Source of the DNA: Ditylenchus dipsaci
Lineage: Eukaryota; Nematoda; Chromadorea; Rhabditida; Anguinidae
DNA: 64,000 nucleotides
Assembly (NCBI GenBank): GCA_004194705.1
Contig: SADC01000883.1
Location: forward strand, 1-64,000
Direction: 5' to 3'
Position numbers and translations under genes: made by a program. How positions within the stretch are numbered: the stretch's first letter is position 1; every line of letters starts with the position of its first letter. Shown in pieces: positions 13,229 to 47,515 of this stretch. A model generated the notes under the pieces. That model ran no database searches and had not been told where the DNA came from. It was given only the letters and a program-made list of their open reading frames with translations.

Positions 13229-13379
13229 TTACTTTACGATTACTGAATTTACTGTGTCCGAATTCTGCGTTTTTTCCTCGTATTCATCATCTAAATACTG
13301 CAATTGTTCTTCATATTTATCCTCTGTAAACTTGTTAATTCTGGCGACGAGCTGTCGTTTTGAGCAGAACTTGTTTGAG
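13229..13379 (-). CDS. Possible terminal exon of the minus-strand modular gene
   Basis: After an ATTAAG acceptor, two overlapping minus-strand frames look coding: one Ser-rich (SSAQNDSSSPELTSLQ) and one acidic and coiled-coil-like (EDKYEEQLQYLDDEYEEK) that runs to TAA at 13229-13231. A single base change in frame would join them. It lies downstream, on the same strand, of the repeated exon modules at 17.5-43.8 kb and could be their 3' end. No AATAAA signal was seen, and the link to the modules is inference. Confidence 0.4.
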
Positions 13380-13623
13380 CTTAATCAAAAATTTTAATGA
13401 AAAAAATTAATTGAAATAATGTTTAATTAATAAATAAGCATTGATTGAAATAAATAAAAAGCTGACCCTACCGGAGTATATACCCCCCCCTCCAAATATT
13501 TTTTTGAACTTCTTCAAAACACTATTTTAACCATTTTAAAGCATTTCCTACGCGTTAAACACGATCAAATAGGTGTTTTCACCTAATTTTCTTTATAAAA
13601 TGTCAATTTTCAGAAAAAAATTT

Positions 13624-14515
13624 GGTTGCAGTGACGAATCCCCCCACGGGGACTGATCAGGTGGAGGAGATAACTTCATATTCGTGTTTCTCGACCCCGA
13701 TTTCATGAGAAAGCCGCGCTTTTTTTTGATTCTGAGAAAAAAATATTTCGAACCACAGGGGGTATCATGGTTTTTTAGTAAAAATTTGAAAAATTTAAAT
13801 TGGCGCCTTTTGAATTTAAAAGGGAATAAGGGCTGTATAGGGAGGGGAAGGGAATAAAAGGGGGCCACTTTTATGGCAGAACGTTAAAAATTCAAAATTT
13901 TTGTATTATTCGCCTGCATCACCATGTTTTTCAACTGGGCCGTGGTAAAAAGAGACTCTATACACATTTTTTGATCATGAGTGCTTCTCGGAATCGTGTC
14001 TAAGGTAAGTGTGTGCGCGCATCTCTAACTCTCAAGCCCCCTGCGCCCCGAAGGGGCGCAGGGTAGCTTGGGGGCTTGGAGTTGAGATACGCACACCCAC
14101 ATACCTAGACACAAATCACTCGAAAGTGACTCTGGATGCATGAAAAAGCATGCATACCAGAGTTTATTTATGCGGTAGGCCCAGTATTCAAAACTATCTT
14201 CAACATCTTCTTGTTAGTGGTCCCTGTGTGATTAGTGGCCCCTTTATTCCCTTCCCCTCCCTATACAGCCCTTATTCCCTTTAAAATTCAAAAGGCGCCA
14301 ATTTAAATTTTTCAAATTTTGACTAAAAAACCATAATACCTTCAAAACTATGTTTTGCTTTTGATACCCCCTGTGGTTCGAAATTTTTTTTTCTTAGAAT
14401 AAAAAAAACGCGCGGCTTTCTCATGAAATCGGGGTCGAGAAACACGAATATGAAGTTATCTCCTCCACCTGATCAGTCCCCGTGGGGGGGGGTTGGTGGA
14501 TTCTGAACACAAGCC
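13624..14515. mobile_element. GGTTG-ended inverted-repeat element, copy 2, with 8-base TSD
   Basis: The element is bounded by GGTTGCAG and CACAAGCC and flanked by the direct repeat AAAAATTT at 13616-13623 and 14516-14523. The arms contain CCCCCCACGGGGACTGATCA and TTTCTCGACCCCGATTTCAT and meet around a GCGCCCCGAAGGGGCGC core. The 8-base duplication together with the GG/CC ends fits hAT, Merlin or Mutator-like insertion; the data do not separate these. It is non-coding. Confidence 0.9.
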
Positions 14516-14894
14516 AAAAATTTACGGTAAAATCACTATTTTTAAGGTATTTTACCAGGGTTGCCATCTCAAAAATTAAAAAAAAAGAACATTTTAAAAG
14601 AAAAAAAAGATTTTAGGTTAAAAAAAAGGACATTTCCTCAAAATCAGCTAAAATCAGGTTCAAACAGTTTTTTTCTGCATTTTTACGGCGACCAGACATT
14701 TTCTACTATAATGAAAAATGTCGGACATCCCCCCTACTAAAGGAATGTCCGTCTGTCTGTGTGTCCGGACAAAAAATTTGGCATTTGAAAATCATATCTT
14801 TTCGAGACCAAAAATATTTTTCGTTTGTAGTATATCGGGTTATATAAGCATTGTGTCAGTCTTAGATTTGTGCGGTGGTGAGCGGTCGTGTCTG

Positions 14895-15183
14895 CCCAAG
14901 TATTTGGATCAGTCCTTTTGTATTGGTTTGTCTGGTTGTATTGGTTCAGCTGGTTGAATCAGTCCAATTGGATGGATCGGTCCAATTGTATTCAACCAGC
15001 TGAACCAATCCAAACAGATGGATCAATACAATTGGACCGATCAATCCAATTGGATTGATTGAACCAGCTGAAGCAATACAACCAGATGGATCGATACAAT
15101 TGGACCAATCCATCTAATTGGACTGATTCAACCAGCTGAACCAATACAACCAGACAAACCATACAAAAAGACTGATCCAAATA
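14895..15183. repeat. Near-perfect palindrome of CAATACAATTGGAC-type units
   Basis: CCAAGTATTTGGATCAGTC at the left is complementary to GACTGATCCAAATACTTGG at the right, centre near 15039. Internal units (TTGGTTCAGCTGGTTGAAT and its complement) alternate, so smaller hairpins can also form. A further partial unit follows to 15235. No target duplication is evident. Confidence 0.85.
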
Positions 15184-15609
15184 CTTGGTCCAGTTGTATT
15201 GGTCTGTCCAGTTGAATTGGTTCAGCTGGGGCTAGTTTCTACTATTTCAGATTTATCGCGCTATATTTTCCACTCATTGGTCAATCATCGGTTTTTTTAA
15301 TTGCGGGAAGTCACTGTTGTCAACTCACCAGGTACTGTTTCATATATGGTAATATCCACGTGCTGGCATTATTGCCTAGGTACCCAGATAGTGGTACTGA
15401 GGTAATAGTTGTTCATGAGTGGACAAATCAGGATTGTTATTTCTAATTCAAGTCGCTGTTAATTTCACCGGTCAAATTCTGAGTCAGAGTGAAGATTTTT
15501 TTACCGGACTTTGAAAATCGGTCGAAATCCTTTGGTTGTAATGACGTAAAATGTTCCACGGATTACGGCAATTATGAGAACAGATTCGTGCTCAGCGCGC
15601 AGTGTTAGA

Positions 15610-16109
15610 GGCTAGGATACATTGGCAAAAACGAAACTTGGCAAATGTGGGTTTTGTCAAAACGAATCTTGGCAAAACGAAACTTGGCAAAACGAAAGTT
15701 GGCAAAACGAAACTTGGCAAAACGAAATTTGGCATAACGAAACTTAGCAAAACGAAACTTAGCAAAACGTAAGCTGGCAAAAATCAGCTTGGGGATCAAG
15801 GCAATTTTTTTTGGCATTTTTACAAAAAAAAAATTTTTGTTGAAAAATGCTTAAAACGTGTATATAAATGCTTTTCGAGATTTTTGGGAAAAAATTTTTT
15901 TTTTGCTAAAACACAACAGGGGGGACCAAGGTGATTTTTGACAACTTTCGTTTTGCCAAGTTTCGTTTTGCCAAGTTTCGTTTTGCCAACTTTCGTTTTG
16001 CCAACTTTCGTTTTGCCAAGTTTCGTTTTGCCGACTTTCGTTTTTGCCAAGTTTCGTTTTGCCGACTTTCGTTTTGCCAAGTTTCGTTTTTGCCAAATGT
16101 ATCCTAGCC
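15610..16109. mobile_element. Foldback-like element, TTGGCAAAACGAAAC array, 8-base TSD
   Basis: The ends are GGCTAGGATACATTGGC and GCCAAATGTATCCTAGCC, flanked by GTGTTAGA at 15602-15609 and 16110-16117. Inside each end lie 7-9 copies of a 16-17 base word (TTGGCAAAACGAAACT or GTT variants), inverted in the other arm. The centre (15790-15940) is AT-rich with ACAGGGGGGACCAAGG. Basic frames such as KTKLGKTKVGK are translations of the array. The plan recalls Drosophila FB elements, whose ends are also tandem arrays with 9-base duplications. Confidence 0.9.
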
Positions 16110-17544: not shown

Positions 17545-18995
17545 TCTTGGTAGTTCTAAACTTTTATCATGTTTATTTGTGAACTCTTGTCTTCTTTTTC
17601 TGTAAATCTCTATGGTTTTTCGTGCTTCTTCATCTGTCTCAGCTAAATAAAAAATCGAACATTATGTAAATAGAAGTGTTTGAAGAAGAGCAAATGTTGA
17701 AATTCCAACAATATTTTGGCAGAATAAAAAAAAATTACTTACGATATTTTTGAAAACCAATTTGAAGTAATTCAGTCTCTAGATCGGCTAGAAATTGATT
17801 TTTTTCTGCATTTCGAGTGTGATGTGTCCTGAATTGATCACATATACTATATACCCCCGCACTCAATTGTACTATTTTTCCCAAAAGTCTTAGCAAAACT
17901 GGCGGGATAGCACTGTCCGGGGTAGCCTAAAACTGCGTTTTTTTCGAGGTCTCAAGATGTTTTAGGCCCTAAAACGACATAAAATGTAAATAAATGAAAA
18001 AAAAACATTTTTGAAAAAAAAAGTAGACAATAATGGAATATACTACCTCAGTTAGGGTGGGTGGCCTAGGGTGAACTGGAGTGGGTGGCCTAGAGTAAAC
18101 TTGAATGAGTGGGTGGAACTTTAGAAGGTGGCCTAAGATGAACTTGGGTGGGTGGCCTACAGTCTGAGTGCCCCAAAATATTTTTTATGAAAAATGCCCT
18201 GGAGCTACGCTTCTGGCTGTTTTCTGCCTTTTAAAGTTTTAATGAAGCCTCAAGCTAATTTACAAATTACCGTTATATTCTCAATCTCATCATTTTTAAT
18301 CTTGTTGACATAATATTCTTTGACATTTCTTTCAAGCATTATTAGCTTCAGTTTTTCATTGGCTCATCAAATTCCTTAAATATCTCATCCACAAATTCGT
18401 TGCAATATTCTACAAAAACGGTTTCTATCTTTTTTGTGAAGAGGCATCATCAATTTGATATGTTCCCAATTATCTAAAAATTTTGAATTCTATTTTTGTG
18501 CTCCATCGACTGTGATAAATAGGTAGAGTTACGTTTTGCCCATTTTCGGACAAATGCACATTTGGCAAAACGTTTTGCCAAATTTTGCCTTGGTCTCCCT
18601 GTCGATTTTTTTTTACTTTTTTCAATTTTCGGATCTTTTACGGGTAGACCAGCACACGTTAGGACGGAATCAAACGTGTGGTTTAAACATGTTTTTTGAA
18701 CTTTGAGAGAATTTTTTTTGCAAAAAGTCAACAGGACGGAACCAAAGTAAAATAAATGTTTTGCTTATTCTCGAACATTTGTCTAAAATGGGCAAATTGT
18801 CTATGCACCAATAAGTAACCTATAGTAGACGCGTGGGCAATTGTTATTTGAAAGCCAATTTTTTGGAAAATTTCATCAACTTTTTTGATCTTCGTGACAG
18901 CAAATTTACTATCTAAAGTAATAAATTATTTCAATATGAACAAATAGGCAAAACAGTAACCTTTTCGTACCATTGAATTTCTGACATTTCAAAAC
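17545..18995 (-). CDS. Modular gene, module IV (exons F-E-B-D-C), frame partly broken
   Basis: Exons run right to left: F 18961-18995 (..MSEIQWYEK), E 18820-18912 (FAVTKIKKVDEIFQKIGF..), B 18271-18473 (..VEYCNEF..; ..LERNVKEYYVNK..), D 17743-17828 (LADLETELLQIGFQKY), C 17545-17642 (ETDEEARKTIEIYRKRRQEF). Each has a GT donor and TTTAG/TTCAG acceptor. The F-E intron is 48 bases; E-B holds a 166-base MITE, and B-D holds a tandem repeat. E is open in phase 1-1; F, B and D are each off by about one base, so this copy is probably a pseudogene. The protein is charged and helical, without a signal or membrane segment here. Family not recognised. Confidence 0.6.
18053..18165. repeat. Tandem GGGTGGCCTA minisatellite, about four units
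   Basis: Units of roughly 27 bases containing GTGGGTGGCCTA followed by G-rich GTGAACTTGGA-type sequence repeat with divergence. It lies in the B-D intron of module IV. Confidence 0.7.
18583..18748. mobile_element. MITE with CCTTGGTC ends and GTTAGGACGGA core
   Basis: The left end GCCTTGGTCTCCCTGTC pairs with a right end GACAGGACGGAACCAAAG-like sequence; the core ACGTTAGGACGGAATCAAAC is shared with copies at 27909-28090, 35697-35892 and 50107-50280. It sits in the E-B intron of module IV and has no coding content. Confidence 0.6.
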
Positions 18996-20675: not shown

Positions 20676-23600
20676 CTATTTCCTTGACAAATTCTCCTCT
20701 ATTTTTTTCAGAACTTTTACAATTTGTATTGCCCTTGTTTCGTCATGTGCTGAAAAATAGAAGTATTTAAAAAAAACTATTTTAATTCTTGTGTTTGAAA
20801 TTGAAAGATGGTTAGTATACGCTACCATATATTATAATATTCTTCATTTTTTAGTACTGAAGCTAAGCAAAAATAATTTTAAATTTTTTATTTGATTCAA
20901 AGTCTTGCTCGGATTTATCTTGCAAGTAAGTTTGTGCACACATCTAAAACCTAAGCTTTCTAGGCCCCTTCAAGGGCGCAGGATCCGTAAAAACGATTAA
21001 TCGACATTAACTTAATTTTAGGTGTCAACATATCAAACTGTACCATTCGGTTAATAAATCCTGACAACACCATTTCAAAGTACGTAGTCTATTTACTATA
21101 TAAAATTCCAATTCTATAAATTATATTTTTGGCAAACAGACAAAATTTAATTTAGAGACTCGAGAAACATCAAGCAGATTCGTGATAGCTGGTCTTCGGT
21201 TCGTTTCCACTAGGGCGTAGCTCAAGCCCCCTGCGCCTCTTTCGGGCGTTTTTTGCCGGTTTAGAGATGCGCGCACTCACTTACCTTAGACATAATCCCG
21301 AGCAAGACTCATGATCAAAAAAGCATAAAGAGCTCTTTTTGCAAAGCTCCTGACCAAAACGGGGAAAATACTGAAAAATGACCCGAAACCATAGGCGGGA
21401 CCAAACCAAAAAATGACCAAAAGCCACAGGAGGGACCAAGGCAATCGAATAATTTTTTTTTTCGAAAATGGCCTTCCCACTCTTTTTTGCCGTTTCTGTC
21501 GTTTTTAGGGCATATGAAATACTTAGACCTTAAAAAACTCACTTTTGGCTCTGGCCAAATAGTGTACTCCTGCCCAAAATTATTACTTAAAAATAAGTTT
21601 TGATCACTATTGAAAATCTTGATTTGGGGGGGGGCGGTTGAGGTATATCAAAGTAGGTGCGAGGATTGGGGGGGGGATGTGGTGTTATATCGAAGTAGCG
21701 CCTAATTTCGGCCTATTTTTACATGTTTCTCGAGTCTCCAGATTAGATTTTTTCTCTATGTTCACCAAAATATTGAAATTTCTGCGCTACTAGCAAAAAA
21801 CCTCCGTCTAGAATCTGACCTTTTTAAAACCGCTGTAACTACCCTTTAAAACAACAAGTTTAGGCTTAGGGTGAGCCATCGTACGGAAGTTGTGACTAAT
21901 AAATGTATCACGCACTTTTTCCTGGGTCTGGGACATAAATTTGGGTAATTTTCACTTAAGTTTTGAAAGGAAATTCGTTGGCGTAGGTGTTTGCTAGTAG
22001 GGTCGAAATTTTATGCAGTAAACCGACTATGCTCTACAAGATGGCGTAAGATCGTAAAGTTTAATATGTTCCCTTGTTAGTACGAGCTTTATTTCTGCAT
22101 CTTGTAACATGGTTTTATCTCGAAAATGATCTTTCCCTGATTCTGCATATGGCTGCATTAATACCAATAAGTGACTTCAAAAATACAAAAACCTACGGTA
22201 GTCTCGAAAATCAAGATCCAACATTTTAAATTCTAGTGATTTGGCTTTTTCGTATTTTTCAAGTATTTCGTTTTCAGATAAATGACCTGAAAATGTTTTA
22301 GAATTCCGAACTTAATTTTTCACAATTACCATATTTATTTTCAATTTCAAATTTAGTGATCCAGTTAACGCAATATTTTCTACAAGCAGCCTCAAATCTG
22401 TTAAATCTATCTTTGTATTCAATGTCTATTTCTGCTTCTGGTAGTGGATGCTTATAATGTTTTATAAATTCATTAAGCATTTCTGTTATCATTGTTTTAC
22501 GATTGTTTATTTCATGCTTTTTTGATTTTATATCATCTTAAAATATTCTCGTTAATAGAATTAATTTTTTTTAAAAGCCATATTTCAAAAAATCTGTAAA
22601 ATAGGAAAAACAGCAACCAAATTTTAAGCTGTTATCATTGCACTTAAGGCGGTGAAAATCCTGATTTTTTAAAAAGCTTTAGAAAAGATTTTTATATACG
22701 GTCGAACCTCTATTTAAGAACACTCCATATATAGACAGACTCGATATAAGGACATTATTATTGACAGCGTTTGCTAGTCCTGGTCGATAAAACTACAACT
22801 TATTTAAGGACAGTAAGAAAATTGTGTACAGAATTGGTTAAACAAAACCCTCTGTGTTTTGCCCAAAAATCGTGTTTAAAGACCTTTAAAGCTATTTCAG
22901 GCCCTTACAAAACATGTTTTTAGGACGTGGAAAGGCATTTAAAAAAGGGGAAACAAATACCCTAGAATGATAAAATGGTCAAAATGATCAAAACTCATGA
23001 TCATAATGCATATAAAACTCTTTGGCCTAGCTCCAGTGACCAAAGCGTGGTAAAACACTCTGAATGAAGTAGTTCACCAAGGCCAAACAATAAACACACA
23101 TGTGCTTCTATTAGAGCATATAAGTTACCTCAGTTTAGCTGCAGAAATCAGATAAAAAATTAGGCCGCTAAAGCTTGTTTTGGACCGTAGATATTTCTTT
23201 CCGGATTACATATTTTATTATAAAATTTTGGTAAATTAATTTTTTAATTTTCAAAATATCAAGCTTACTGAAAGATGCGGCGTATGAAAAAGCAATAAAA
23301 ACCCGAAAATTTAGTTGTTGCTTGAATATTTGCGAATCTGTCACGGAGAAGGCGTCATCTGAATAAAAAAACTCTTTACTACAAATAAATACAGGGTGTC
23401 GCAAGAAATTCCTCTTTTTTAATTTTGTCATATCTTGTTATTTAAGCATAATTTCTCCATGCTTTTTCTCTTATTTTTTTATGATGATATATGAACACTC
23501 AACTTAGGTACTCATTTTGACGGGTGTCCAAAAAGTCCCTAAATGAAAGTTTGAGCTTATTGTTCACAGCTAATTTTTTTATGAATCGACCCGAGTAAAC

Positions 23601-24629
23601 ATTTTTGGTATGTGGGTGTGTGCATCTCAACTCCAAGCCCCAAGCCCCCGAAGCGGGCGCAGGAGGCGTGATGGGTTAGAGATGCGCGCACACACTTACC
23701 TTAGACATGATTCCGAGAAGTACACTTGATCATAAAATGCATATAGAGTCTATTTTTGCCACGGCCCAGTTGAAAAACATGGTAAAGCAGCTAAAAAAAG
23801 TGGCCCTGTATTATTCCCTTCCCCTCCCAATACAGCCCATAATCCCTCTTAGCTGCTTTTCTGGTTCTTTTATGGCAAAATTATTGCATAAAAATGGTTT
23901 TTAGACACTCCCAAAAAGTCAATTTTTGGGGGGGGGGGTATATTACAGTAGCGTCAAAATCTCTGTAACTAGAATGTAGCGCACTTCAAAAGCTACGAAA
24001 CCCACTTTGCAAAAAAAACTTTCGAATAATCAGAGTGTTCAGATATGCATTGTGACTAAACACCAATGTATTTAATGAATGATTAATATCCGAAAATCAG
24101 GAAAAAACTCGGATTTTGGCCATTTTTTGAAAAAGCGATTATTATTCTGTGAAAAAAAGTTTTGTAGCTCTTGAACTGCGGTTTAACATGCTTCTTAAAT
24201 GTAATCGTAATGCTAAATATCCAGTCTGACAAGATCACCGATAAGATAAAATTACCAATGAAATTTAAATAAAAAAACTAGAAAATGAGTACCCAAGTTT
24301 GAGTGTCCATATGTCAAAAAATTGATCATACAAATTATTGCATAATATTTTAAGGTGCTTCTCGGAACGTAGGCTTTAAAATAAGAAGAAGATCATACAG
24401 AAATTATGCTTCAATAAAAAGAGACGGCAAAAATCATACTAGGGAATTTCTTGCGCCACCCTGTATGAAGTTCTTTTTGCCGCTAAAAAGCTTTTTTCCC
24501 CCGCTAATTTGATCCTTTTCGGCGATTAGTGCCGAAGAGGCGCAATTTAGCGGCAAAAAAAGCTTTTTAGCGGCAAAAAAGCTTTGCCCTTCAAAAACTA
24601 ACCAATCTTGAACCAGTTCTTAGCAGATG
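20676..24629 (-). CDS. Modular gene, module III (exons F-E-B-D-C), frame intact
   Basis: Exons: F 24603-24629 (SAKNWFKI), E 23269-23358 (FSVTDSQIFKQQLNF..), B 22330-22536 (RKTMITEMLNEFIKHYKH; ..CVNWITKFEIENKYG), D 22197-22286 (LSENEILEKYEKAKSLEF..), C 20676-20749 (HDETRAIQIVKVLKKIEEN). F, E, B and D each begin with two bases and end with one (phase 1-1) and are open throughout. C ends in TAG immediately before its GT, so it may close the protein. The B-D intron is 43 bases. The F-E intron holds a 1.07-kb mariner-like element and the D-C intron an inverted repeat. Each exon aligns by eye to its counterparts in modules I, II and IV. Protein family not recognised. Confidence 0.65.
21125..21775. 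repeat. Inverted repeat with GAGACTCGAGAAACAT ends
   Basis: GAGACTCGAGAAACAT near 21154 is complementary to ATGTTTCTCGAGTCTC near 21723, with weaker pairing outward. Between them are fragments of the GGTTG-ended family (GAGATGCGCGCACTCACTTACC, shortened here) and G-runs. It lies in the D-C intron of module III. Borders are approximate. Confidence 0.55.
23392..24463. mobile_element. Mariner-like element with TA target, nested repeat inside
   Basis: CAGGGTGTCGCAAGAAATTCC at the left pairs with GGAATTTCTTGCGCCACCCTG at the right (shown here to 21 bases or fewer), each flanked by TA. Inside at about 23600-23900 is part of the GGTTG-ended family, and at 23940-24200 the GTAGCG..AAAAGCTACGAAACCCAC words shared with 29.9 and 37.6 kb. 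No transposase frame remains. It interrupts the F-E intron of module III. Confidence 0.8.
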
Positions 24630-28327: not shown

Positions 28328-28690
28328 GATATTTAGTAAAAGGAATTTCTAACATTTCAAGTTCAAAATTATTGCTTCGATTATTTTTTCTACCTTCGTT
28401 TCTTCAGAAAGATATCCTTAAATTTATAATTATCGTACTTTTTTACATCTCAAAGTACAAGTCTTACCATGATACTTTTCAATTTCATATTTTGCGATCC
28501 AGACAACACAAAACTTGGTCATTGTATCTTGTGATAAAAATCGTTTATCTATGCATTTATTTTCAGAAATTTTATTTTTTATATAGGAGTGTAGAGAACA
28601 TTTCATATCTTTTGATTCTTGGAAGGCTTTTATTAGCTGTTTTTGTGGAAATTTATTTTTCTTTCTTTGTCTCTGGCTGCAGATGGTCAT
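28328..28690 (-). CDS. Modular gene, module II (exons B-D), one frameshift in B
   Basis: Exon B (28468-28690) ends in MTKFCVVWIAKYEIEKYHG, aligned to the B exons at 22.4 and 43.5 kb. Its first codons after the GTAG acceptor are in another frame, and the length is one base off. A 50-base intron (28418-28467, TTTAAG end) leads to exon D (28328-28417, YLSEETKVEKII.., NFELEMLEIPFTKY), open in phase 1-1 with a GTAAGT donor. F and E of this module were not found; weak E-like codons lie near 28745-28815. Confidence 0.58.
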
Positions 28691-31257: not shown

Positions 31258-34200
31258 TCTTGATATGGTTAGAATCCGTATCATATTCATTTTTTATTTC
31301 ATGTCTTCTTTTTTTGTAATCTTTTACTGTTTCTTGGCTTCTTCATCTGTCTCAGCTTTATTAAACACAAATATTAAGTGAAGAAAAAAAGTTATCTACT
31401 AGAAAATTAAGATCTGCTATTTTTAGGCTAAAGTAAAAAACAAACCCCTCTCCCCACTTGGGTAAAGAACAGCACCCTCCCACCCGAATTTCGCCTTGGT
31501 CCCCGAAGCTAATTTTTTGGAGAACTTTTTTGTGTATATGTTTCATTTGCATTTTTAATAAAATTTGTGGTCTTTTTTGCAGGTATTCTTTTTACTGAGT
31601 CCTCCCAAAAGTGTATTTTGACCACTTTCTTGAACTTTCGGGCCCTTATTATGATAGAAAGGTTTCCAGGTGGCGGAAAGACAATTTTTTAAAAAATAAT
31701 TTGACTTTTTGCTTTGGTTTTTCGAGGTACACCACCATACATAGAGGTATTCTACCCCGTTTTGGTAACTGGAGCTGGGCAAAAAGAGCCTTTAAATGCA
31801 TTTTTGATCAAGAGGGCCCTCTTCGGGGCGCAAGGCGCTTGGGGTTGAGATGAAAACCCGCGTTTTTTGAAGGAGTCGCTAAAAGAAAGTTTAGCCCTAT
31901 TTTTAAAAAATTCGAACAAAACATATGAAAACACAAAAAAATCAGTATGCGAGACCAAGGCGAAATTCTTTGGTTTTTTTTACCCGAGTGGGGTAAGGGG
32001 GATAGGGTTGGTGATCTTTACTTGCTCCTTTTTTATATTGCAGATATCTTGATGCTTTGGAGCACTCATACTGTACCCAGCACTGGATTGTACTTTATTT
32101 CTCGCAAAACTCTTGAAAACTGTTTATCTATACTTTTCCACTTTAATATTTTTTTGATATGCCTTAGTCTTTCAAGCTAAATCAGCCGCTGGTGATACAG
32201 TGTAACCGATTATTGGGGGTATAGTGTGTCTTAGCCGATGCTACTCAGTGATTTAACTTTAAAGGGCTGTGTACTTCAGGTCCAGAATACTTGGAAAGTT
32301 GTCTCGAGTGGAAATTCGATGCAATCCGATTAATTTTTAGTTCTCTGGTATAAAAAAGTTGATTTGTCACTGATTTTTGGTCTAATTTTAATTAAACTGA
32401 ATGATGGCATTTTACTACTGTAAATATAAATAATCGTAGCTAATTGCTGGTCAAAGATACCGTATTTCCTCTAATAGGAGCACCGGTGCGCTTATTTTTC
32501 AACCTCCTAAAATCGGGAAAATTTGAGGTCGATCTCGATATTTTTGGGTGAACCTTAAAAATCTGAAACCTGGAATCGGTAGAGCTCGTGACACGGCGTG
32601 TCAAACACGTCAAATGACTAAATCGAGCTTGACGTTCTGTTTTAATGAAAATTCTAGATTATCACGACTACGTGAATTATAATGTGCAAGATAAAAATAA
32701 TAAGCATGTTAGCATGCAAACTGTAGGAAGGCCTGTAAGCATACAGACCTTAAAATAGGCCCAGACCAAAAAAATAACACCTACTGTAACGGCAAGCCAA
32801 TATAGCAAGCAAGAAAACAGACTCACAGAACCCCTCTCTAGAAGCTCCAAAGGAAAATGCAAACTTGCATAATCATTAGAGCCTGCTAAATAAAGAGAGA
32901 GGGTGTAAGCCGGAAAACATAAAACACAATCTTAAACAGAATGTACCTACTAAAGATAGTAGGATTGAAAAACAGAGTTTAAAACCCTACTTCCTAAAGG
33001 ATAATTCTATATAACATAATATAAAATTTAAAAAATCCAGATTAAAAAGAAAGTGAGTGCCGGATAAGGGCCATCGTAGACTTAGCAAATCAAGAGTTAA
33101 ACTCACCAGACGAGTTAAGGGGAGTCACCTCATGGGCGAAAAGCGGCAATACTTTTTTTTGTCACAGATTCACTTCTTTTTGTCACAGATTCACTTTTTT
33201 CTGTCACAGATTTGATTTGTCACAGATTCACTTTTTTCTGTCACAGATTCACTTTTTTTTGTCACAGATTCACTTTTTTTTGTCAAGATTTCCTCATTTC
33301 TGTCCCAGATTTAGCTCAAACCACAGGGGGGACCAAGCACTTACAAAATTGGTCAAAAAAATTTTCTCTCATAACAGCCTGAAAGTTTTTCTATAACGTT
33401 TCTATCATGTTTTAAGCATTTTCGCCAAAAATTATTTTTTCCGCAAATTTTTGCCTTGGGGAACCAAGGTCCCATTTCAGGCTCCTGAAAACTTTGGACT
33501 ACCTTGGTCCTCCAAGGCAAATTTTTGCGGAAAAATAATTTTTGGCGAAAATGCTTAAAACATGATAGAAACGTTATAGAAAAACTTTCAGGCTGTTATG
33601 AGAGAAAATTTTTTTGACCAATTTTGTAAGTGCTTGGTCCCCCTTGGTGTTTGAGCTAAATCTGGGACAGAAATGAGGAAATCTGTGACAAAAAAAAGTG
33701 AATCTGTGACAAAAAAAAGTGAATCTGTGACAGAAAAAAGTGAATCTGTGACAAATCAAATCTGTGACAGAAAAAAGTGAATCTGTGACAAAAAGAAGTG
33801 AATCTGTGACAAAAAAAAGTTTTGCCCGCGAAAAGCTGAGTGAACGTACTACGATCGTGCCAGAGAGAATTTTTTTTAGCAGAGAATTATTAAGAAATAA
33901 CTTTTTTAAGTTAGCAACTTGACTCTGCCAAACCGATAAATTCGAACTTTTAATTTTTCAACTTTTTACATTTATAACTGAGCTTGATTTTTTCAATTCG
34001 AAAGAGCAAACTCAGAGCTTTCCTGTGGTATCAAAAAAATCGAACACAGCTTACCTAAGCAAAGTTTTAACCAAAAACAGAAAATGTTAAAAAAACAAAA
34101 AATTTTGAATTCAAAATGTTTTTTTAAAACGAATTTGTCTCTATACGAAGATCTCGATCTGGTCTTTTGACGTGTTTGACGGCTCTAGGTGAATTGAACC

Positions 34201-37200
34201 TCTACAAATTGAACCCGGTAAATTGACCCTCCGGTAAATTGAACCTCCAAATTTGTCTTAAGAGGATTGTTATCAAAACTAATTATATTTTTCGGTGTTG
34301 GTAAATCACTTTAGGAAGAGGAACCATCTCGGTGATAGGTAAGTCCCACGAAAGTATTAGGTCGCCCCATAATACGGGGTTGAACTAAGATGTGATAGTA
34401 ACTAGCTTGCGCCACCACGATCTCATCTAGATGGTGTTACTCAGGTGTTAGTTTACCAGAATACGCAAATATTCAGTTAGTGATATGCAGCTGAAGTTAT
34501 ATATGACCACTTGTAACAAAAAAATTTCACTTTTTCGGGCCTTAAAACCTCTTTTCTGGACTAACTCGAACATCCTGAAGATGGTTTGATAGTGCTAGAA
34601 TGCCGTTTTGTAGGTATTTCTTGAGCTTTGGTAAAACCAGTTTTGCTAAAATCAATTTTTGTCCAATACTCAAAAAATACCGTTTCAGCATGCCCGAATT
34701 AATCCAGAAAACAGGTTTTGGAATCCGAGAAAAATTTTGAAAAAATTCACTCTTAGTCTGCCTCTCACTCTCACTGTATCGGCATTACCAATTTGGTAAT
34801 AAGAATTACCGTATAACCTCTTTTAATCTCGCAGGGGTTATTTTTCAACCCCCGAAAAATTTTGAAAATTTGAATCAAAAATGGCGTTTACTCTGAAATC
34901 CTGGTCAAGAAAATGGGGGGGGGGGTGAGTGGATGATTAATAGAGGTTATACGGTAAAAGCCAAAAAAATCCAGCCAAGACAAATTTTAGAGTTCAATTT
35001 ACCGGAGGGTCAATTTACCGGGTTCAATTTGTAGAGGTTCAATTTACCTCCGCCCGTGTTTGACACGCCGTGGTGAGAGTTAAGAAAAGGCAATAAACAG
35101 CTTTGCAAAATATTAACTCTACCCCGAGATCCAGACCCTCAAAGTTTGCTCTTATTAGAGCGGTGCTCCTATTAGAGGAAATACGGTAGTAATACGTAAT
35201 TTTCTGAACTGACGCCCTTCCGTGCAATTTCGTCAGCTTTAAGTATGGCATCAAAGTCGGAAACGACACACGCCACGCCTAGATACAGCCACTAGACCAA
35301 TATTTCCTGTTCTCATGATCGTTCTCATGAATGGCCTGAATAACCATATTCTTCATCAAATGTCAAAGCGATCAAGCATGAGTGCAAGGATGTGCTTTTT
35401 AGAATATTTCATTCAATGCGTTCCATTTAAGTTCCTAGATTAGAGAATGAAAAATAAATCAGTTCCCTAAAAGGTTTTTTTGCCGTTATCCCGACCACCT
35501 TGATTTTGCATTTTTTGTGCTCAATACTTTCATTCCAACTTAGTAGCGGAAGCCCATAGATGGAGCCGGGCCCACACCTATGGGCTTCCGCTCAGCCGCT
35601 TTTGGAAGTCTACTCATAAGCCCACCTCCCACCCTACCTTCCACCACCTAGGGTATGGGTAGATTCGGCCCTATTCCTCAATGGGGTGTTTTTTTCGCCT
35701 TGGTCCCCCTGTTTGTTTTTTTGTGATTTTTTAGGCTTTACAATAAGGCAATGGTTGGCGAGCGTATATTAGAACGGACTCAAACGTATTTTAGACTCAT
35801 GATTAAGTTCGTCCTAACATACGCTTGCCTAGTTTGCCTGAGCCTAAGGCTGAAAACTCACAAAAAACAACATCAGGGAGGACCAAGGCAAAACCCTCGC
35901 CCCCCCCCCTCCCCCCATTGAGGGATAGGGCCGTAGATTCTATGAGTAGATTCCAAAAGCGGCTGAGTGGAAGCCCATAGGTGTGGGCTTATGGTGGGGG
36001 GGGGTTTTAGATTCCCTACAAGACCGTGGTTTGGTGTGTGATAGGTAGTGTGGGAGGTAGGGTGGGAGGTGGGCTTATGGGTAGAATCCAAGGCAGCATA
36101 GCGGAAGCCCATAGATGTGGGCCGACTCCGGCTTTGGGCGGGCTCTGCTATTAAGTTGGGAAATAAAAGTATTGAGCGCAAAAATGCAAAATCAAGGGAA
36201 AAGAACCATCAGATTACATCGACTGTCCGTTTAAGAAAAAATTTCAGATATTCCGGACCTAAATACACAAGCCTGGGGTGGGGCGGTAGTATTCCTACTA
36301 GTGTCCTTTTTCTAATCAACCGATAAAATACCAATTTTTTAAATGAAAAACTGGCTGTTTTTGCCCTGATGCTGCCACAGTAAGCGTACGCCAGTGGCCG
36401 CGTACGGCTTTGTACAGGCCTGGGAAAAAGTGCGATCCCACGATATCCTTGCAAGTCGGCGCTCTAACCATTTGAGCTATCGGGTCGCCCAGGCCTGTTT
36501 CTTATTTCTCTGCTATCTGCCTCCCTTACACAACCCATGGTTGACATTACAATCTATTTACTCTTAGGGTAGTCATGTAATGTGAATTTCTAACACAAAA
36601 AATGCATTTTAATTATTTTTGGGCAATGAGTAACAAAAAAATTTTGAAAAAAAATCAGCTTGGGGACAAAGGCAAATATTAAACTTTTTGCAAAAAAAAC
36701 AACAGGGGAGACCAAAGCATATTTTTTTCGAGGGCCACACCAACACATATAGAGCCACTTTTTGCATACTGGTCCCCTCTCTTAGGTGATTTCACAGGAG
36801 CCTCAAAAATCCTTACCACCTGTGACGTAAACAACGTAATCTAAGTTTTCAAGGTTAAAAGAAAAAAATGCTTGTCAACTTCTCAAAACATATAAATCTA
36901 CTTTATTAAAAATTTTATAAAACTAGCTAATGCAGCATTTGCTAAAAACAATCTCTAAACTACTAAAATGCTTAGCCGCAAAAAAAATTACTCACGATAT
37001 TTTTCAAAATCTGTTTCAAGTAATTTAGTCTCTAGCTCGACATTATCATTTATCTCTTGCTCTATTTCTAGATTCATTTGTCCTGAATTGAGAGTGAAAT
37101 TATCAAATTAATTTCTAGTTTACCAAGTAATTTTATTTAATGGTTTAATTCCAATTTTAACGATGGAAGAATAAGGCTATTTTAATTCTGACCGTCTATT

Positions 37201-40200: not shown

Positions 40201-43200
40201 TAAGTATACGAGAAGTTTCTTACGAAAAATTACTGTTACGAAAGAGTTTGTTACGAAAATGCGCTGTTACGAAAATGTTTGTAACGAAAATGTTTGTTAC
40301 GAAAATGTTTGTTACGAAAACAATTTGTTACGAAAGTTGGCTGTTACGAAAATTCGCTGTTACGAAATTGTCCTGTTACGAAACTTCGTACAGCCTGTTG
40401 AGATATTTCATTTTTAAAAGTCAAAACTTTAATCAAAATACTTGTAGACTTGTGAAAATAAATCTGTTTTTTTTTCAATTAATTTTCACTACTAAAGATG
40501 AGCAATTGTTAAAACTAATAAGTACGTTTTGAGTAAAATATTCAGGCCAAACATGCATTTCAGACAATCATGAATTTTCTTTTTTTCGATCTAAAAGATC
40601 TCTTAAAAATCCAAGAAAAATACAAAAAAACGACTGAAATATCTCTACGATATTTCCCACATATACAGGGTGTCCCAAAACAACCTGCAATTTTTGAAAA
40701 ATTTTGATTATGATATTTTCTATTGCTGTTATTATTTAACAGCGCTATGACCACCGAAGTAAAGAAAAATAAATGTGTTTGTTCTTAGGGTAACTCCCAG
40801 GTAGCTTGTCAGGGATTTTTCTGGGAAAATTGTAGGGGCAAGGAGCTACCTACATAAATTTTTTAAAACTTTGCAGGTTTTTTTGGATCACCTTGTACTG
40901 CTTCAAAATTTGAAATCGTCTTCTTGGCATTGCATTTTTGACTTTATTTTCTTAGTGGTTAGGAAACTTTCGGCTCAAAAGGTAGCTGAGAAAATGAGCT
41001 AAGTTTTGGGTGGTAATTAGTCTAGGTAGCAGAAGCAAATAATAGGCCAAAAAAAGTCCAACCCAATAAAAAAACCAATTTTAAAGCTTAAAAATTAATT
41101 TTTAAAAACTGACGAAATCTGGAAATTTCAATTATCACAACCAGTTTTCAATAATTTTTCATAATGAAACCATCTATTGTACCCCCAAATATGACCATTT
41201 CAGCACAAAAAAATTAGATGTTTTGGCCAAAAATAAATTCGGGCAAGAATGGGTTAAAAATATCCAGATGCTGTTCCAAATTCACTAAAGTGAATTTCTG
41301 AAAAAGCTGTCTTGGCACTTCTTTAGTTCTCCCCCGCCCTTCCCATATTCGAATTTTCTGAAAAGTAACCCAAATCACCTCCCAAACTATTTCTTCCTGC
41401 TTATCACGCTACAAAAAGCACTTGTAAACACTGTCTGAATAAAAAAAAGTTTCCTCCCACGCCTCATGTACAAATGGGATTATTAGGGTATTTTTCACTA
41501 AATTTCATCCCCTTGCAAGTCAAATAAAAATAAATATCACAGATTTTAGGGCTTCACACAGCTTCTACAATTAGATAATTCAAACAGCGCCTATTTGAAT
41601 AATCAGATATTTCAAAAAATTATATTACGCCAATTAAGAGGGTTCGCCAATCGCTGATTTTGTTTATTATACGTTTTGGCAATTGTATGATTCATTTTTA
41701 GTCTACTTAGCTAATTTATGTTTTAGCATAGTACCTATTTCGACAATATTTCAAGCAGTTGATCAAGTTACTTTAGCAGTTGATCAAACTTCCTAACCCT
41801 AGATAAATTTGGCCGTGCGTCTACCTTGTTGTTTTTACACAGAAAGTGAATTTAACCCTTAAACTGCAGCAAGGTTTTATGTTTTTTCAGGTTTAAAAAC
41901 CTGTTTTCTGAACTAATTCGAGCATTCAAAAGATGGTTTGACAGTAGTAAATGCCGTTTACAGAGTATTTTTCGGTTTTCGTAAGATCGCTCTGATGACA
42001 GAAGGTGTACGGTAAATTCGTCCAGACAATCTTGAAAAAAATAAACCATGCTATTCTGCCCAAAATTGTGTGCTGAAAACGGTTTGTTAAGACCAAAATC
42101 CTGTTCTCACCATCCAAAATCTCAATACCCTGGCCAGGTACTCACTCCGATGTAGTCAACCCTAAATTTGAGGGAATTTTTTCGAATGGGCGAACAAATA
42201 GTTTTATGTTGCCTAAAGCAGTCTTCTGAGTACGTTGGAAAAAATAAAATGTTGGGGTTTTTCCCCAACATTTTCAGGCTGTACCCAAGTTGTCCAGCTG
42301 GACGTCCACCTGGAGGATGGGGAACTACCTCAGTTTTTTTAGGTGTTAATATATCAAAACTAGTTTTCGCTCTTTAGAAATCGTTCTAAGCACCTACTTT
42401 TAATAAAGATAGCATAATTTGTTTGCCTATTCCAAATAATTCTCTAAAACTTAAGGTCGACCACCTTGGAGTAGGGAAACAGGGTGAGATTCTGGTTAGT
42501 ATCGAGAATCTGATTAGTTAAAACAGCATTTTGGGAAATGGTTTATGAACAATTTTTTAAAAAACCATTGCCTAAAGGATCATTGCCGAAAGGGACCGTT
42601 GTTAAAAGACCATTGCCGGAGATGGCAATGGTCCTTTATTGTGTGAAAAAAGCTTGGGGGACCGAGGCAAAATTTTTTGAAGGGCCCGCAAACATATATA
42701 GATTCGGATTAATTCGGACAACAAAACAGAAAGTAAGCGAAGCTATTTCACCATGAAAAAAACACAACAAAGAGTGCAAAAAATAGTTGCTTTTTTTCAC
42801 CAATAGTTTTTAAAAATAGTTGACGATGCCTTGTTCCCACAAGGTATCGTCAGAACTTGACGAGTTTTTGCGTTGGCGAGTATTTTGCGTTAGCGAGTTA
42901 TAGCGTTGGCGACTCGGTTGCTGCTCCCAAAAAGAGCAGAGACATGATGGGTTAGAGATGCGCGTACTCACTTACCTGCGACATAATTCTGAGAAAGATT
43001 CTTCTTTTTAGCCCAGCTCTAGCAAAGAAAATTTGATAAATCTCCCGAAATTGACCCTAAAATGTCTTAAACTGATCATGTAGACCTGTGGGGTGGGAGG
43101 CAATATTTTTTGACAAAATTCAAAATTTTTCAAAATATTTTGTTTATCGCGTGAGAAGAAAAGTTTTTGTGATCACTTTTCACAAAATCTGAGTATGGGG

Positions 43201-43804
43201 AAACTTAAGAAGTACCAAATAATGAAGTAAATGTCATTTAGTTGCCCGGTGACTTGGCTATAGAAAAAAATATCTCTCGAAGACATAATAATTTCAAAAA
43301 ATATGAGCAAATAAAAAAGTGATACGAATTTGCAGACCCTGTAGATTTTACTGTGCACTACAAATTACCTACCTTCATATTTCTTGTCGACCTCATCACT
43401 AACAACCTTTTGAGCATAATATTTTTTGACGTTTTTTTCAAATAGCATTATCTCAAATTTGTTTATTGGCACAGCAAGTTGATGCAGCAGCACTTTTTTA
43501 AATTCGGTACAATATTCTACAAAAACATTCTTTATGAAATTCTTGCGAGGAGGTACCATATATTCTATTTGTCCGCAATCATCTTAAATCTTTTTATTAC
43601 ATTTCTGTGATAGAAACAAAAAGTTACCTAAAGTAGACGCATAAGAAACAGCTAATTCAAAGCCAATTTTTTTCAAAATTTCATTGCCTATTTCAGAATC
43701 TGTGACACCAAATCTATTATCTAAAGCTATGATTTATTAAGGTTGAAAAAACAGCAAGCAATTACCTTTTTTGTACCAATCGATTCCTGATACTTTTGAA
43801 AACT
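31258..43804 (-). CDS. Modular gene, module I (exons F-E-B-D-C), introns swollen by transposons
   Basis: Exons: F 43766-43804 ([12 protein letters not shown]), E 43628-43720 ([18 protein letters not shown]..), B 43373-43582 ([19 protein letters not shown]; ..[12 protein letters not shown]), D 36996-37082 ([18 protein letters not shown]..), C 31258-31355 (ETDEEAKK.., one base lost). F-E and E-B introns are both 45 bases with TTTAG/TTAAG acceptors. B-D (6.3 kb) and D-C (5.6 kb) are filled with mobile elements. F, E, B and D are all open in phase 1-1, so they can be joined or repeated without loss of frame. The product would be hydrophilic and helical, about 175 residues per module. Not recognised; coiled-coil scaffold-like proteins are one possibility. 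Confidence 0.65.
31437..32005. repeat. Inverted-repeat element with CCTTGGTCCCC arms
   Basis: CCCACTTGGGTAAAG..GAATTTCGCCTTGGTCCCC (31467-31505) pairs with GAGACCAAGGCGAAATTC..ACCCGAGTGGGG (31950-31995). The interior includes a shortened GGTTG-family core near 31830 (GGGGTTGAGATG). No coding support. Confidence 0.6.
33145..33827. mobile_element. Foldback-like element, GTCACAGATTCACTTTTTT array, 9-base TSD
   Basis: GGCAATACTTTTTTTTGTC and GACAAAAAAAAGTTTTGCCC ends are flanked by GCGAAAAGC (33136-33144 and 33828-33836). Seven or so copies of a 19-20 base word (GTCACAGATTCAC plus T-run) are inverted in the other arm. The rest of each arm is almost identical to the centre near 33490, so the whole element folds into one hairpin. 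It is nested in the CACGG element. Confidence 0.92.
34181..35054. mobile_element. Foldback-like element, AAATTGAACC array, 10-base TSD
   Basis: CGTGTTTGAC is duplicated at 34171-34180 and 35055-35064. It lies within the right terminal repeat of the CACGG element, which becomes a perfect match to the left one once this insertion is removed. The ends (GGC..GCC) are followed by four variants of a 15-17 base word (AAATTGAACCC, AAATTGACCCTCCGGT) inverted in the other arm. A smaller MITE sits inside at 34809-34954. Confidence 0.92.
34809..34954. mobile_element. TA-type MITE, CCGTATAACCTCT variant
   Basis: CCGTATAACCTCTTTTAATC and GATTAATAGAGGTTATACGG are complementary and flanked by TA. A variant of the CCGTATTTCCTCT family; a similar pair lies at 55533-55687. 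Innermost layer of the nest at 32.5-35.2 kb. Confidence 0.75.
35545..36125. repeat. Composite inverted repeat with GCGGAAGCCCATAG units
   Basis: GCGGAAGCCCATAGATG occurs near 35546 and again near 36100. CACACCTATGGGCTTCCGCTCAG (shortened) near 35570 is complementary to sequence near 35960. Within it, 35697-35892 is a MITE of the CCTTGGTCCCCCTG family (centre GTCCTAACATACG). The region is C- and G-run rich; Pro/His-rich frames are repeat translations. Confidence 0.6.
36423..36490 (-). pseudogene. tRNA-like element bounded by CAGGCCTGGG
   Basis: On the minus strand GGGCGACCCGATAGCTCAAA starts like a tRNA, with an A box (TAGCTCAAATGGTTAGAGC) and a TTGCAAG loop that would place anticodon GCA. 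The anticodon stem does not pair and the T-arm (TGGGATCGCAC) is poor, so a working tRNA is unlikely. CAGGCCTGGG flanks both sides as an inverted pair, suggesting a tRNA-derived mobile unit. Confidence 0.5.
38069..38677 (+). pseudogene. Histone H4 pseudogene with two introns
   Basis: H4 is the core histone that pairs with H3 in the nucleosome. Exon 1 (38069-38119) carries GLGK and AKRHYK with one base missing in the GKGGAK part. Intron 38120-38171 (52 bases, TTTTCTAG). Exon 2 (38172-38347) carries [25 protein letters not shown] and [10 protein letters not shown], with a small deletion near LRDNIRG, an AAG-to-TAG stop after SVL, and one codon lost. Intron 38348-38629 has a TTTAG end. Exon 3 (38630-38677) reads VTAMDVVYA then YGFCG and TGA, with six residues deleted. 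The N-terminal tail is missing. Most animal H4 genes lack introns, so the source was an intron-bearing variant copied through DNA, not reverse-transcribed mRNA. Confidence 0.9.
39253..40076. mobile_element. Inverted-repeat element nested in the H4 carrier
   Basis: GGCGCATTTTTTACTAATTC pairs with GAATTAGTAAAAAATGCGCC; the arms of about 180 bases also share TTTTTGCCTTGGTCCCCCAA. The centre has three direct copies of about 75 bases (ATGCATCCAGAGTCAC..AGGTATGTG..CATCTCAACTCCAAGC) from the GGTTG-ended family. No target duplication was identified. Confidence 0.75.
40666..40895. mobile_element. Mariner-like MITE with TA target
   Basis: CAGGGTGTCCCAAAACAACC and a right end reading GGTTTTTTTGGATCACCTTG pair and are flanked by TA (40664-40665 and 40896-40897). 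CAGGGTGTCCCAAAA is a classic mariner-type end. 230 bases, non-coding. Confidence 0.82.
42050..42350 (+). repeat. Dispersed repeat also present at 50825-51045
   Basis: Shared words in order: GTTAAGACCAAAAT, TCTCAATACCCTGG, TTGCCTAAA, ACTCTGAGT/CTTCTGAGT, ATTTTCAGG, AAGTTGTCCAGCTG, and GGAGG. The two copies have the same orientation and are roughly 75-80 percent alike by eye. Part of the start also resembles 34545-34640. Identity of the family is unknown. Confidence 0.55.
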
Positions 43805-44117: not shown

Positions 44118-44261
44118 TTAAGCAGGAATGTTGAACAAAAGACTATTTCTTAAAAATTAGAATTTACAATTTTCCGTAATTTTTTATTCAAATAATTGTT
44201 TATCTTACGAAAGAGGAACCTTGACTGTGATTTTTTGATGTGCACATTATGCACATTATTG

Positions 44262-45125
44262 GGCTTGAGTTCAGAATCCCCCCCACGGGACTGATCAGGT
44301 GGAGGAGATAACTTCATATTCGTGTTTCTCGACCCCGATTTCATGAGCAAGCCGCGCGTTGTTTTGTTTCTGAGAAAAAATTTTTCGAACCACAGGGGGT
44401 TATCATGGTTTTCTAGCCAAAATTTTGAAAATTTGAATTGGCGCCTTTTGAATTAAAAAGGGAATAAGGGCTGTATTGGGAGGGGAAGGGAATAAAAGGG
44501 GGCCACTAATCACACAGGGGCCACTAACAAGAAGATGTTGAAGATAGTTTTGAATACTGGGCCTACCGCATAAATAAACTCTGGTATGCATGCTTTTTCA
44601 TGCATCCAGAGTCACTTTCGAGTGATTTGTGTCTAAGGTATGTGGGTGTGCGCATCTCAACTCCAAGCCCCCAAGCCCCCTGCGCCCCGAAGGAGGCGCA
44701 GGGGCTCGAGAGTTAGAGATGCGCGCACACACTTACCTTAGACATGATTCCGAGAAGTACTCTTGACCATAAAATGCATATAGAGTCTTTTTTTACCACG
44801 GCCCAGTTGAAAAATATGGTGAGGCAGGCGAAGAATACAAAAATTTTGAATTTTTAACGTTCTGCCATAAAAGTGGCCCCCTTTTATTCCCTTCCCTCCC
44901 AATACAGCCCTTATTCCCTTTTAAATTCAAAAGGCGCCAATTTAAATTTTTCAAATTTTGACTAAAAAACAATGATACCCCCTGTGGTTCGAAAAATTTT
45001 TTTTCTCAGAACCGAAAAAACGCGCGGCTTTCTCATGAAATCGGGGTCGTGAAACACGAATATGAAGTTTTCTCCTCCACCTGGTCAGTCCCCGTGGGGG
45101 GGGGGGTTGATTTGTCACTGCAACC
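44262..45125. mobile_element. GGTTG-ended inverted-repeat element, copy 3, with 8-base TSD
   Basis: The ends GGCTTGAG and CTGCAACC are flanked by CATTATTG at 44254-44261 and 45126-45133. Relative to copy 2 the whole element is inserted in the other orientation (GGCTTGAG end first). Arms contain CACGGGACTGATCAGGTGG and a CGCCCCGAAGGAGGCGCAGG core. Non-coding. Confidence 0.92.
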
Positions 45126-45179
45126 CATTATTGTTGATCGTGCCCGAGTTGCTGACAAATCTGGCTCCCCAGCTCCGAA

Positions 45180-45550
45180 GGTCCACAAAACGTGGTAGAA
45201 GCTGGCGCCGGCGCTAACTTTGAACTCGGCGGAGCGTCGGCTAAGCGCCTGCGCCGTAAGCGCCGGCGCTCCGCCGGCGCTTGAACATACCTGATTATTC
45301 AATACTGCTTTTCAAAAAATTATTATACTCTGCGTTTATATTTAATAAAATCCGCACTGTAGTTTTTCAAGCAGTGAAGTTAAAGAACAGTGAAAAAGAA
45401 TGATTATTAACGGTATCCGAGATAACCACTTCTTAAGCGCCGGTATAAGCGCCGGCTAAGCGCCGGCGCTAACTTTGAACCCGTGAAGCGCCAGCTAAGC
45501 GCCGGCGCTTAGCTGGCGCCGGCGCTAACTCTAAACGCCGGCGTTTAAAC
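45180..45550. repeat. GC-rich GCGCCGGCGCTTA repeats
   Basis: Two clusters (45205-45290 and 45435-45545) of self-complementary GCGCCGGCGC and CTAAGCGCC units sit in AT-rich DNA. They can form strong hairpins. Flank words (AACTTTGAAC, TTTAAAC) recur between units. Possibly the inside of a hAT-like MITE; ends not defined. Confidence 0.6.
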
Positions 45551-45559
45551 AATCTTGGT

Positions 45560-47515
45560 TGGGGGCCAAAAAAGATTTTGGCTCCTGCAAACACCAAGTT
45601 TTGGCTCCTACGCCTAGAGCTTTTTGGTGACCAAACCTTTTCTGAGCATTTTTATGCTTAAAATGGTCACTGAAGGCTTACACTACAACATAGAAATAAA
45701 ATTAGAAAACTTTTATACACAAAATTTTAAAAACACAGCCGGATTATGAAACTTAAAAGTCACAGCTTAAAAAAGCCATGCCGGTATTCACGGCTTTATG
45801 ATTAGCACTTTTTCCAATTTTTTTTATTAGAAAGTATCGATTTTTTTTCATGTTGCAGTTCATGCCTTTTACTACCATTCTTCCTACCCCAGATATAACG
45901 GCCCTTTTTTCGAGCCAATTTGGCTAGCCAACAAAGAAATTTGACAAAGCTTAACACCGATATAGCGGCACCCTTAATACAACAGCACCTCCAGCTGGTC
46001 CCTAGGGGTGCCGTTATATCCAGGTTCCACTGTTTCACGAAGATTTTTCGGTTCTGTCGACTTCGCGATAACAAGAATAGACTATTAATATATTAACAGG
46101 TCGAAAATAGCCACCCGCTTGATTAAAAATACGCCACCAACACAAAAACTCCGTCAAAACCAAGTGTGTGGCGATTTGTTTTATTTTGTGGTTGGTGTAT
46201 TCCGTAAGTGTTTCATTAAAATACAAAAGATTTACTAGATTCAATAATGATTAAAAAATTTGTCTGCTTACCTGTAAAAAGCAGCTGTATGGTTAATAGC
46301 TTTCGGAAAATTGCATGCAGGTTATGCCCACACAAGTGAAACTGCTTCATTACAATTCTTAAAAAAATAAAGGATTAGTTAGCTATTAAAGGACCACGGT
46401 TTTTGAACGCAGCCGCATTTTCGAAATTTGGATTTAAGGGACACCTTTTTACTTCGACAATATTCAACAATTACGCATCTAGAGTCACTTTCGAGTTATT
46501 TTTGTCTAACAGAATAACCTCACATAGTGTCCATGGCCTATTGACAAACAGCATATACCATCCGTTAGATTTTTGAAAATCCTTATTAGACTTTAAAAAC
46601 GGTATCGCTCACGGCTCCGCTTTTCAATGTACTTAACCATTCAAAATATATAAAAAAATATGTAGTAACTTTCGAGTGATTTGTGTCTAAGGTATGTGGA
46701 TTTGCATCTCTTGTGTGGATGTGCTCTATTTGAAATGAAAAACACTACTAAAACATGGTTTCTAATCAGGGGATTAATTAGAGGATCAATTCAGGGAATC
46801 AATTATAATCAATTAGAGGGGTTGGTCATTAGAGGGTAATTGCAATGAGAGAAAATACGGTAGTGAGAGAAGAGGTAAAACAGCAAAAAATACTTTGTTA
46901 AAAACCAGTCACAAAACCAGTTTAAAAAAAATTCAGAAAACTTGGAAAAAAAGACTATGAGGCAAATATTAATATTATTTTTGAGCAGTTAGGATATCAA
47001 ATAATTTGTATAAACTGATAACTAAAAAATATTTTTGATTTTAAAATTCAAGTATGTTTAAAGCTAAAGCTAGCCTGCGAAAATTATACTTTTTTCCGTA
47101 GGCCTGATCGATGACAGCTCTATTGAAAGGCGAATCAATATTTCTCTGCTTCTCTACTTTATCTGGATGATATAGTACAGTCAAGGCTCCATAAAATTTT
47201 TTTTGCTCACGCCTGTGTCATGGCTAAGTCCTACGCTTTTTATGTCTTGATTTTTTGGTTGCCAATATTGTTTTTAATTGTTTTTTACTAGGCTTGATTT
47301 TTTAAGGGTATGGATTCGGGATCGGGATTTGAAAAGGTTTCGAGATCCCTGTCAGAAAAAAATGGGAAAACCGTCTTAATTCGGGATGTTTTTTTTTATC
47401 AGTTACTGTAGATTCGAACTGCATTTTCAAACTGAAAAGTGAAAACTGTAAAATTCAGCCATTATACAAAAAACTATCAAACAACAGTTGTTTATAACTT
47501 TTTTCAAATATTCGT
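45560..47515. other. Mostly gene-free, with Tigger-like ends
   Basis: 45885-46030 holds GATATAACGGCCC and a minus-strand CAGTGGAACCTGGATATAAC, typical of pogo/Tigger terminal repeats. 46784-46855 ends in a degenerate GAGAAAATACGGTA. Apart from the candidate exon at 46272-46357, no coding signal was seen. Confidence 0.4.
46272..46357 (-). CDS. Candidate first coding exon of the modular gene
   Basis: The minus strand has a TTTTTTAAG acceptor, an ATG at 46350, an open run (MKQFHLCGHNLHAIFRKLL..) and a CAG/GTAAGC donor. The exon ends with one base of a codon, the same phase as all F, E, B and D exons, so it could splice to F of module I 2.5 kb away. The link is inference from phase and strand only. 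Confidence 0.33.

Follow-up and report, generated by a model that had tools for sequence, protein, structure and literature searches.

We analysed a 64,000-nucleotide stretch of Ditylenchus dipsaci DNA (contig SADC01000883.1 of assembly GCA_004194705.1, positions 1 to 64,000), called the window here, in which short minus-strand exons of five types recur in the fixed order F, E, B, D, C. They very probably belong to a low-copy, multi-locus and apparently undescribed family of modular proteins, so far encountered in D. dipsaci alone. The product would consist of repeats of one module of approximately 161 residues, to which F contributes about 11, E and D about 30 each, B about 67 and C about 25 codons. 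An earlier note on the window had proposed that such exons make up a modular gene, or a cluster of genes, spliced from the minus strand. Its observation was confirmed, and its interpretation is partly supported, the family found at other loci of the genome speaking for it. The window is labelled C879 where it has to be told apart from other contigs of the same genome (C96, C207 etc.).

Exon modules in the window

The exons, all on the minus strand, form four copies, I to IV. F, E, B, D and C are all readable in copies I, III and IV, and in copy II B and D alone were seen; the claim that the same order recurs at least four times was borne out for the three complete copies and not for copy II. 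Single exons are named below by their donor-side (3') ends, as in the earlier note. In copy I exon F lies at 43766..43804 (AG/GT borders, phase 2..1, translation ending in IDWYKK), E at 43628..43720, B at 43373..43582 (69 full codons, open), D at 36996..37082 and C, with an internal reading-frame break, at 31258..31355. Copy II has B at 28468..28648, its 5' end not fixed, and D at 28328..28416 with an internal frame break. The exons of copy III are at 24603..24629 (F, short), 23269..23358 (E), 22330..22536 (B), 22197..22286 (D) and 20676..20749 (C, ending in TAG), and those of copy IV at 18961..18995 (F, of out-of-phase length), 18820..18912 (E), 18271..18490 (B region, frame broken and 5' end not fixed), 17743..17828 (D, frame broken) and 17545..17642 (C, with an out-of-phase end).

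That exons of one type align to one another is clearest between copies I and IV, where comparison of the window with itself gave four exon-sized blocks of DNA similarity with E values of 1e-18 to 1e-11: 43617-43810/18809-19001 (72%), 43384-43609/18278-18500 (69%), 36980-37091/17727-17837 (78%) and 31279-31382/17565-17670 (75%). An exon usually starts with two bases of a split codon and ends with one (phase 1-1). The full pattern of AG, two split bases, one split base and GT was seen in 8 of the 10 tabulated window exons, exon C of copies III and IV being the exceptions, and exon B of copy III fits it likewise; the earlier note had described the phases and borders in the same way, as prevailing rather than universal.

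All 11 measured introns of the window start with GT and end with AG. The short ones (43, 45, 45, 48 and 51 bases) are those between F and E and between E and B in copy I, between B and D in copies II and III, and between F and E in copy IV. The predicted range of 43-50 bases for compact introns was therefore right for four of them and one base too narrow for the fifth. The intron between D and C of copy IV is 100 bases long. The introns of copy III reach 732 (E-B), 1,244 (F-E) and 1,447 bases (D-C), and the longest are in copy I, 5,640 (D-C) and 6,290 bases (B-D), in agreement with the prediction of long, repeat-holding introns. Exons make up 1,829 of the 26,260 bases between 17.5 and 43.8 kb (7%), in line with the supposition that the central window is mostly intron. 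The wider limits proposed for the gene, 13229..46357, fared less well: an exon that starts with Met and ends in phase 1 at 46350 and, at 13.2 kb, an open exon with a stop can be read as candidate end exons, but a search of the genome with them returned only themselves.

Several repeats were observed in the window. Members of a near-palindromic family, 86-90% alike, are at 8669-9528, 13621-14524 and 44259-45125, with a further one at C96:20309-21063. Foldback-type elements occupy 15610-16109, 26714-27518, 33145-33826 and 37875-40396. They are inverted repeats, each arm being composed of tandemly repeated short units, mostly of 15-31 bases; the one at 33.1-33.8 kb has a 91% relative on C231. Positions 56526-57356 and 63180-64000 form an inverted pair of about 830 bases with 96% identity.

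Profiles built from all copies match their own training rows by construction. For an independent test, exon profiles were made solely from copies outside the window and run over its six frames, with five shuffled windows (adjacent-base pairs shuffled) as control. Of the 17 listed exons 13 were among the top nine rows of their own profile, and eight scored above every shuffle: E 43628 (E value 1e-7) and 18820, B 28468 (4e-13), D 28328, 22197, 36996 and 17743, the last narrowly (8.7 vs 8.6), and C 17545. None of the F exons exceeded the control, nor did B 22330 or E 23269; F of copies I and III and B 22330 scored within the range of the shuffles and E 23269 below it. B 43373, B 18271, C 31258 and C 20676 were outside the top nine. 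It must be noted that the shuffle control was not strict, since two unlisted places also exceeded it. One is a D-like stretch at 41116-41148 on the plus strand, opposite to the listed exons (10.6 vs 8.6). The other is a C-like stretch on the minus strand at 11029-10994 (10.5 vs 9.7), which was not accepted because neither a D exon nor a splice context was seen around it.

Part of the locus is already in the databases. UniProt entry A0A915EKH3, an uncharacterized D. dipsaci protein of 120 amino acids, is encoded letter for letter by five minus-strand segments between 20676 and 28522 (28522-28468, 28416-28394, 22450-22330, 22286-22197 and 20749-20676) ending in TAG. Its exon 1 is the 3' part of exon B of copy II and its exon 2 the first 23 bases of the following D; it then takes the 3' part of B, the entire D and, as the final exon, C of copy III. 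Compared with the exon modules, the model joins pieces of copies II and III from an internal Met, and it is without F, E and copies I and IV. Four of the listed exon ends (28468, 22330, 22197 and 20676) recur in it, three of them used as donors, so that the description of the gene as hidden is only partly true.

Related loci and selection

The D. dipsaci genome (226,978,389 bases in 1,359 contigs) was searched with its own sequences and with the exon profiles; locus counts are lower bounds. At least about eight loci of the family were found. C96, C207 and C563 have all five exon types in one order and on one strand. C96 carries, on the minus strand, F E B D, C, F E B D, C, followed by weak E and B; C207 carries C, F E B D, then weak C and B; and C563, on the plus strand, F E B D C, then degenerate F/E and B D. 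Part sets are present at C231 (F, E, B), C852 (E and B, at two places), C932 (F, E and part of B) and the closely alike C86 and C1309 (E, B, D). Modules stand in tandem at four loci (C879, C96, C207 and C563). The third-module matches at C96 and C207 are weak by profile (E values 0.0014 to 10), and the corresponding regions of the two contigs also match at the DNA level (77-86%).

AG, two bases, one base and GT or GC were read in 25 of 33 tabulated exons, a count which, as the splice sites were visible when many of the exons were placed by eye, describes the family and is not a test. A GC donor follows exon E in 3 of 8 tabulated E exons (second module of C96, C207 and C563). By eye it was also noted at C932, C1309 and the second module of C563; the window copies have GT. 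The E and B exons of C852 lie in a 3-kb stretch present twice on that contig (C852:41814-44924 and C852:177237-180416), about 94.5-96% alike and similar up to the ends of the compared piece, which is either a recent duplication or a joined haplotype.

The ratio of nonsynonymous to synonymous substitution rates (dN/dS) was estimated by the Nei-Gojobori method, with bootstrap ranges, in thirteen comparisons. C96/C207, compared without the first part of B (beyond the C96 frame break) and the first codons of D, gave 0.19 (0.09-0.37) over 157 codons, and 27 of 48 substitutions were at third positions (p 0.0009). The ratio together with the third-position excess indicates that the exons of this pair are real coding sequence. 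With F left out, they are free of gaps, with identities of 88% (E), 94% (B after the frame break), 78% (D) and 90% (C); five intron pieces of the same pair are 69-83% alike, four of them with gaps. The other computable comparisons, I/IV apart, gave 0.33-0.65: C96a/C96b 0.46 (0.21-0.86), C96a/C207 0.37, C563a/C563b 0.43 (0.20-0.79), C563a/C207 0.65 (0.38-1.07), C563a/C1309 0.50 (0.30-0.85), C563b/C1309 0.51 (0.25-0.94), II/III 0.43, I/III 0.35, C563a/II 0.33 and C852/C852b 0.33, the last resting on two substitutions. C1309/C86 gave no computable value, and seven further comparisons had some bootstraps without a value. Many pairs approach saturation and were aligned at the protein level, conditions that tend to lower the ratio; C96/C207 and I/IV are the safe ones. 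The earlier note had named a lack of purifying selection and of homologues as what would speak against it; for the family, purifying selection was found in the C96/C207 ratio and relatives at the other loci.

DNA trees built from 13 copies of B and from 11 copies of E agree in joining copy I with copy IV (0.999 and 0.987) and copy III with C231 (0.975 and 0.949). Copies I and IV are thus sisters and yet enclose copies II and III, which suggests that a block of modules, or a single module, was duplicated.

One gene, several genes or a relic

A number of results weigh against the family reading. Seven of the 17 listed window exons are faulty in frame, stop or phase: the frame or length is broken in I-C, II-D, IV-F, IV-B and IV-D, IV-C is out of phase, and III-C closes with an in-frame TAG at its supposed donor, where the public model also stops. 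Frame or phase faults occur outside the window too, in C96-B, C207-C and C1309-D. Copies I and IV, the pair for which the earlier note's proposal of dN/dS between modules gave no sign of constraint, have a ratio of 1.01 (0.60-2.00) and no excess of third-position substitutions (27 of 80, p 0.51), thus purifying selection, judged in this way, is seen in the family at C96/C207 and not at I/IV. The third-position excess was not significant in any of four single-exon comparisons among C563 and C1309 (p 0.058-0.66), and the identity of exon D between C96 and C207 falls within the intron range. The AlphaFold model of A0A915EKH3 (11 rows) is helical but unreliable, with a mean predicted local distance difference test (pLDDT) score of 48.5. 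No first exon was established among the places examined, C563 33.0-37.3 kb, where a candidate at 35627 was unconvincing, and the candidate at 46350 in the window.

The exon faults, the I/IV ratio, the many repeats in the window and the failure to see F, E or C for copy II would be accounted for if the window locus were a relic, with pseudo-exons in decay here while the family lives on elsewhere. This is compatible with the family reading, and we consider its probability to be not far short of even. F-E-B-D of copy I and of copy III are, however, open with intact splice sites, and a public gene model exists. Moreover, the genome was assembled with CANU from PacBio RSII reads, no short-read polishing being named, and a Benchmarking Universal Single-Copy Orthologs (BUSCO) assessment of the assembly counted 133 fragmented and 312 missing of 982 genes (PMC6929663); single-base gaps may therefore be errors. 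Closely alike pairs are full of short gaps, which may also be natural: there are 17 gap openings in 1.4 kb between C1309 and C86 (96% alike) and 37 in 3.1 kb between C852 and C852b. Since no short-read polishing is named for the assembly and alike copies differ by so many short gaps, decay and assembly error are not separable from this sequence, and we regard the window locus as partly decayed or mis-assembled. A tandem array of separate one-module F-E-B-D-C genes, which also agrees with the family reading, is a real possibility, at clearly less than an even chance. The TAG of III-C, with the public model stopping there, fits such an array, and so do the frames past some C exons, which soon meet a stop. 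On the other hand, where C and F are close (at C207 the gap is 98 bases, with the C end out by one), no start exon was seen between them, the public model itself links pieces of two copies, II and III, and at C96 the single base closing exon C and the two bases opening the next F make an in-frame join. This join favours one transcript through several modules at C96, and a long multi-module protein at loci of this type has, on the sequence, a somewhat better than even prospect; in the window, given the broken frames and the TAG ending III-C, genes that are shorter or decayed are equally possible.

Two further explanations would deny the family altogether. Short open stretches flanked by AG and GT are to be expected in AT-rich DNA and could have been strung together by eye, and the failure of the three F exons, B 22330 and E 23269 to exceed the shuffles, together with the two unlisted places that did, would agree with this. 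The restriction of DNA similarity to the exons, the eight exons above the shuffles and the constraint at other loci already refute chance for E, B, D and C as types, leaving it next to no probability, but single exons may still be wrong. It is also highly improbable that the exons are parts of the gene of a transposable element. They do lie among repeats and at several loci, but the loci are few, at least about eight, their multi-exon anatomy is ordered, and no Pfam family matched above its cut-off.

Character and meaning of the product

The low-copy modular family that we prefer would encode a repeat protein that is charged and for the most part helical. Each of two complete modules is 161 residues long, with 13% Lys, 11% Glu, one or two Trp and two Cys. 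A profile search for known relatives, as the earlier note had advised, did not succeed: no Pfam family was above its curated cut-off in any of eight rows, the best match, in one row, being SLIDE (E value 0.0014, 19.1 bits vs a cut-off of 24.8). Among PDB sequences a profile search up to E 10 gave two weak matches, the better one (0.0044) to part of a ribonuclease HII, which we judged to be chance, and Rfam gave no match at gathering thresholds. In protein searches, which depend on shared five-residue words, the joined exons of copy III matched A0A915EKH3 alone among 62 candidates. The C207 query matched nothing among 66, and a two-module alignment nothing among 7,995 candidates scored, in a length range that excluded the 120-residue A0A915EKH3. 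Because the protein searches need such words and the DNA searches covered the D. dipsaci genome, we infer the lineage restriction of the family only provisionally. No description of this exon family appears among the titles and abstract openings surveyed.

It is useful to compare the family with two known systems. The nematode NPA polyprotein allergens (PF16469) are tandem repeats of a helical unit similar in size to this module, and some C exons may carry a basic run like that at the ends of their units. They were rejected as relatives, as none of the eight rows matched the NPA profile and the NPA matches of the genome are only on C314 (a cluster at C314:21357-34593) and C1331, distinct from the family loci. 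The class 1-1 modules of exon-shuffled animal proteins consist of symmetric phase 1-1 exons, whose duplication leaves the frame unchanged. The family resembles them in its repeated phase 1-1 exon units, and differs in that no common domain was found and that its module is itself cut into five symmetric exons.

As the exons are symmetric in most copies, gain or loss of an exon or a module leaves the reading frame intact. Modules may have multiplied by unequal exchange or block duplication, and repeats, including foldback-type elements, may later have swollen some introns. A more specific scenario, in which long modular proteins restricted to the genus or species exchange modules through transposon-rich introns and form a putative fast-diversifying surface or secreted set, appears unlikely to us. 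With low confidence we predict the role of a fast-evolving, lineage-specific binding or packing protein.

A0A915EKH3 is a chimera of two modules, a warning that gene models in such genomes can misstate the encoded product. The results point to a protein family that has apparently gone unrecognised in a quarantine crop nematode, with exons too short and too scattered for open-frame searching, and suggest how a module of symmetric exons can multiply while its introns fill with repeats.

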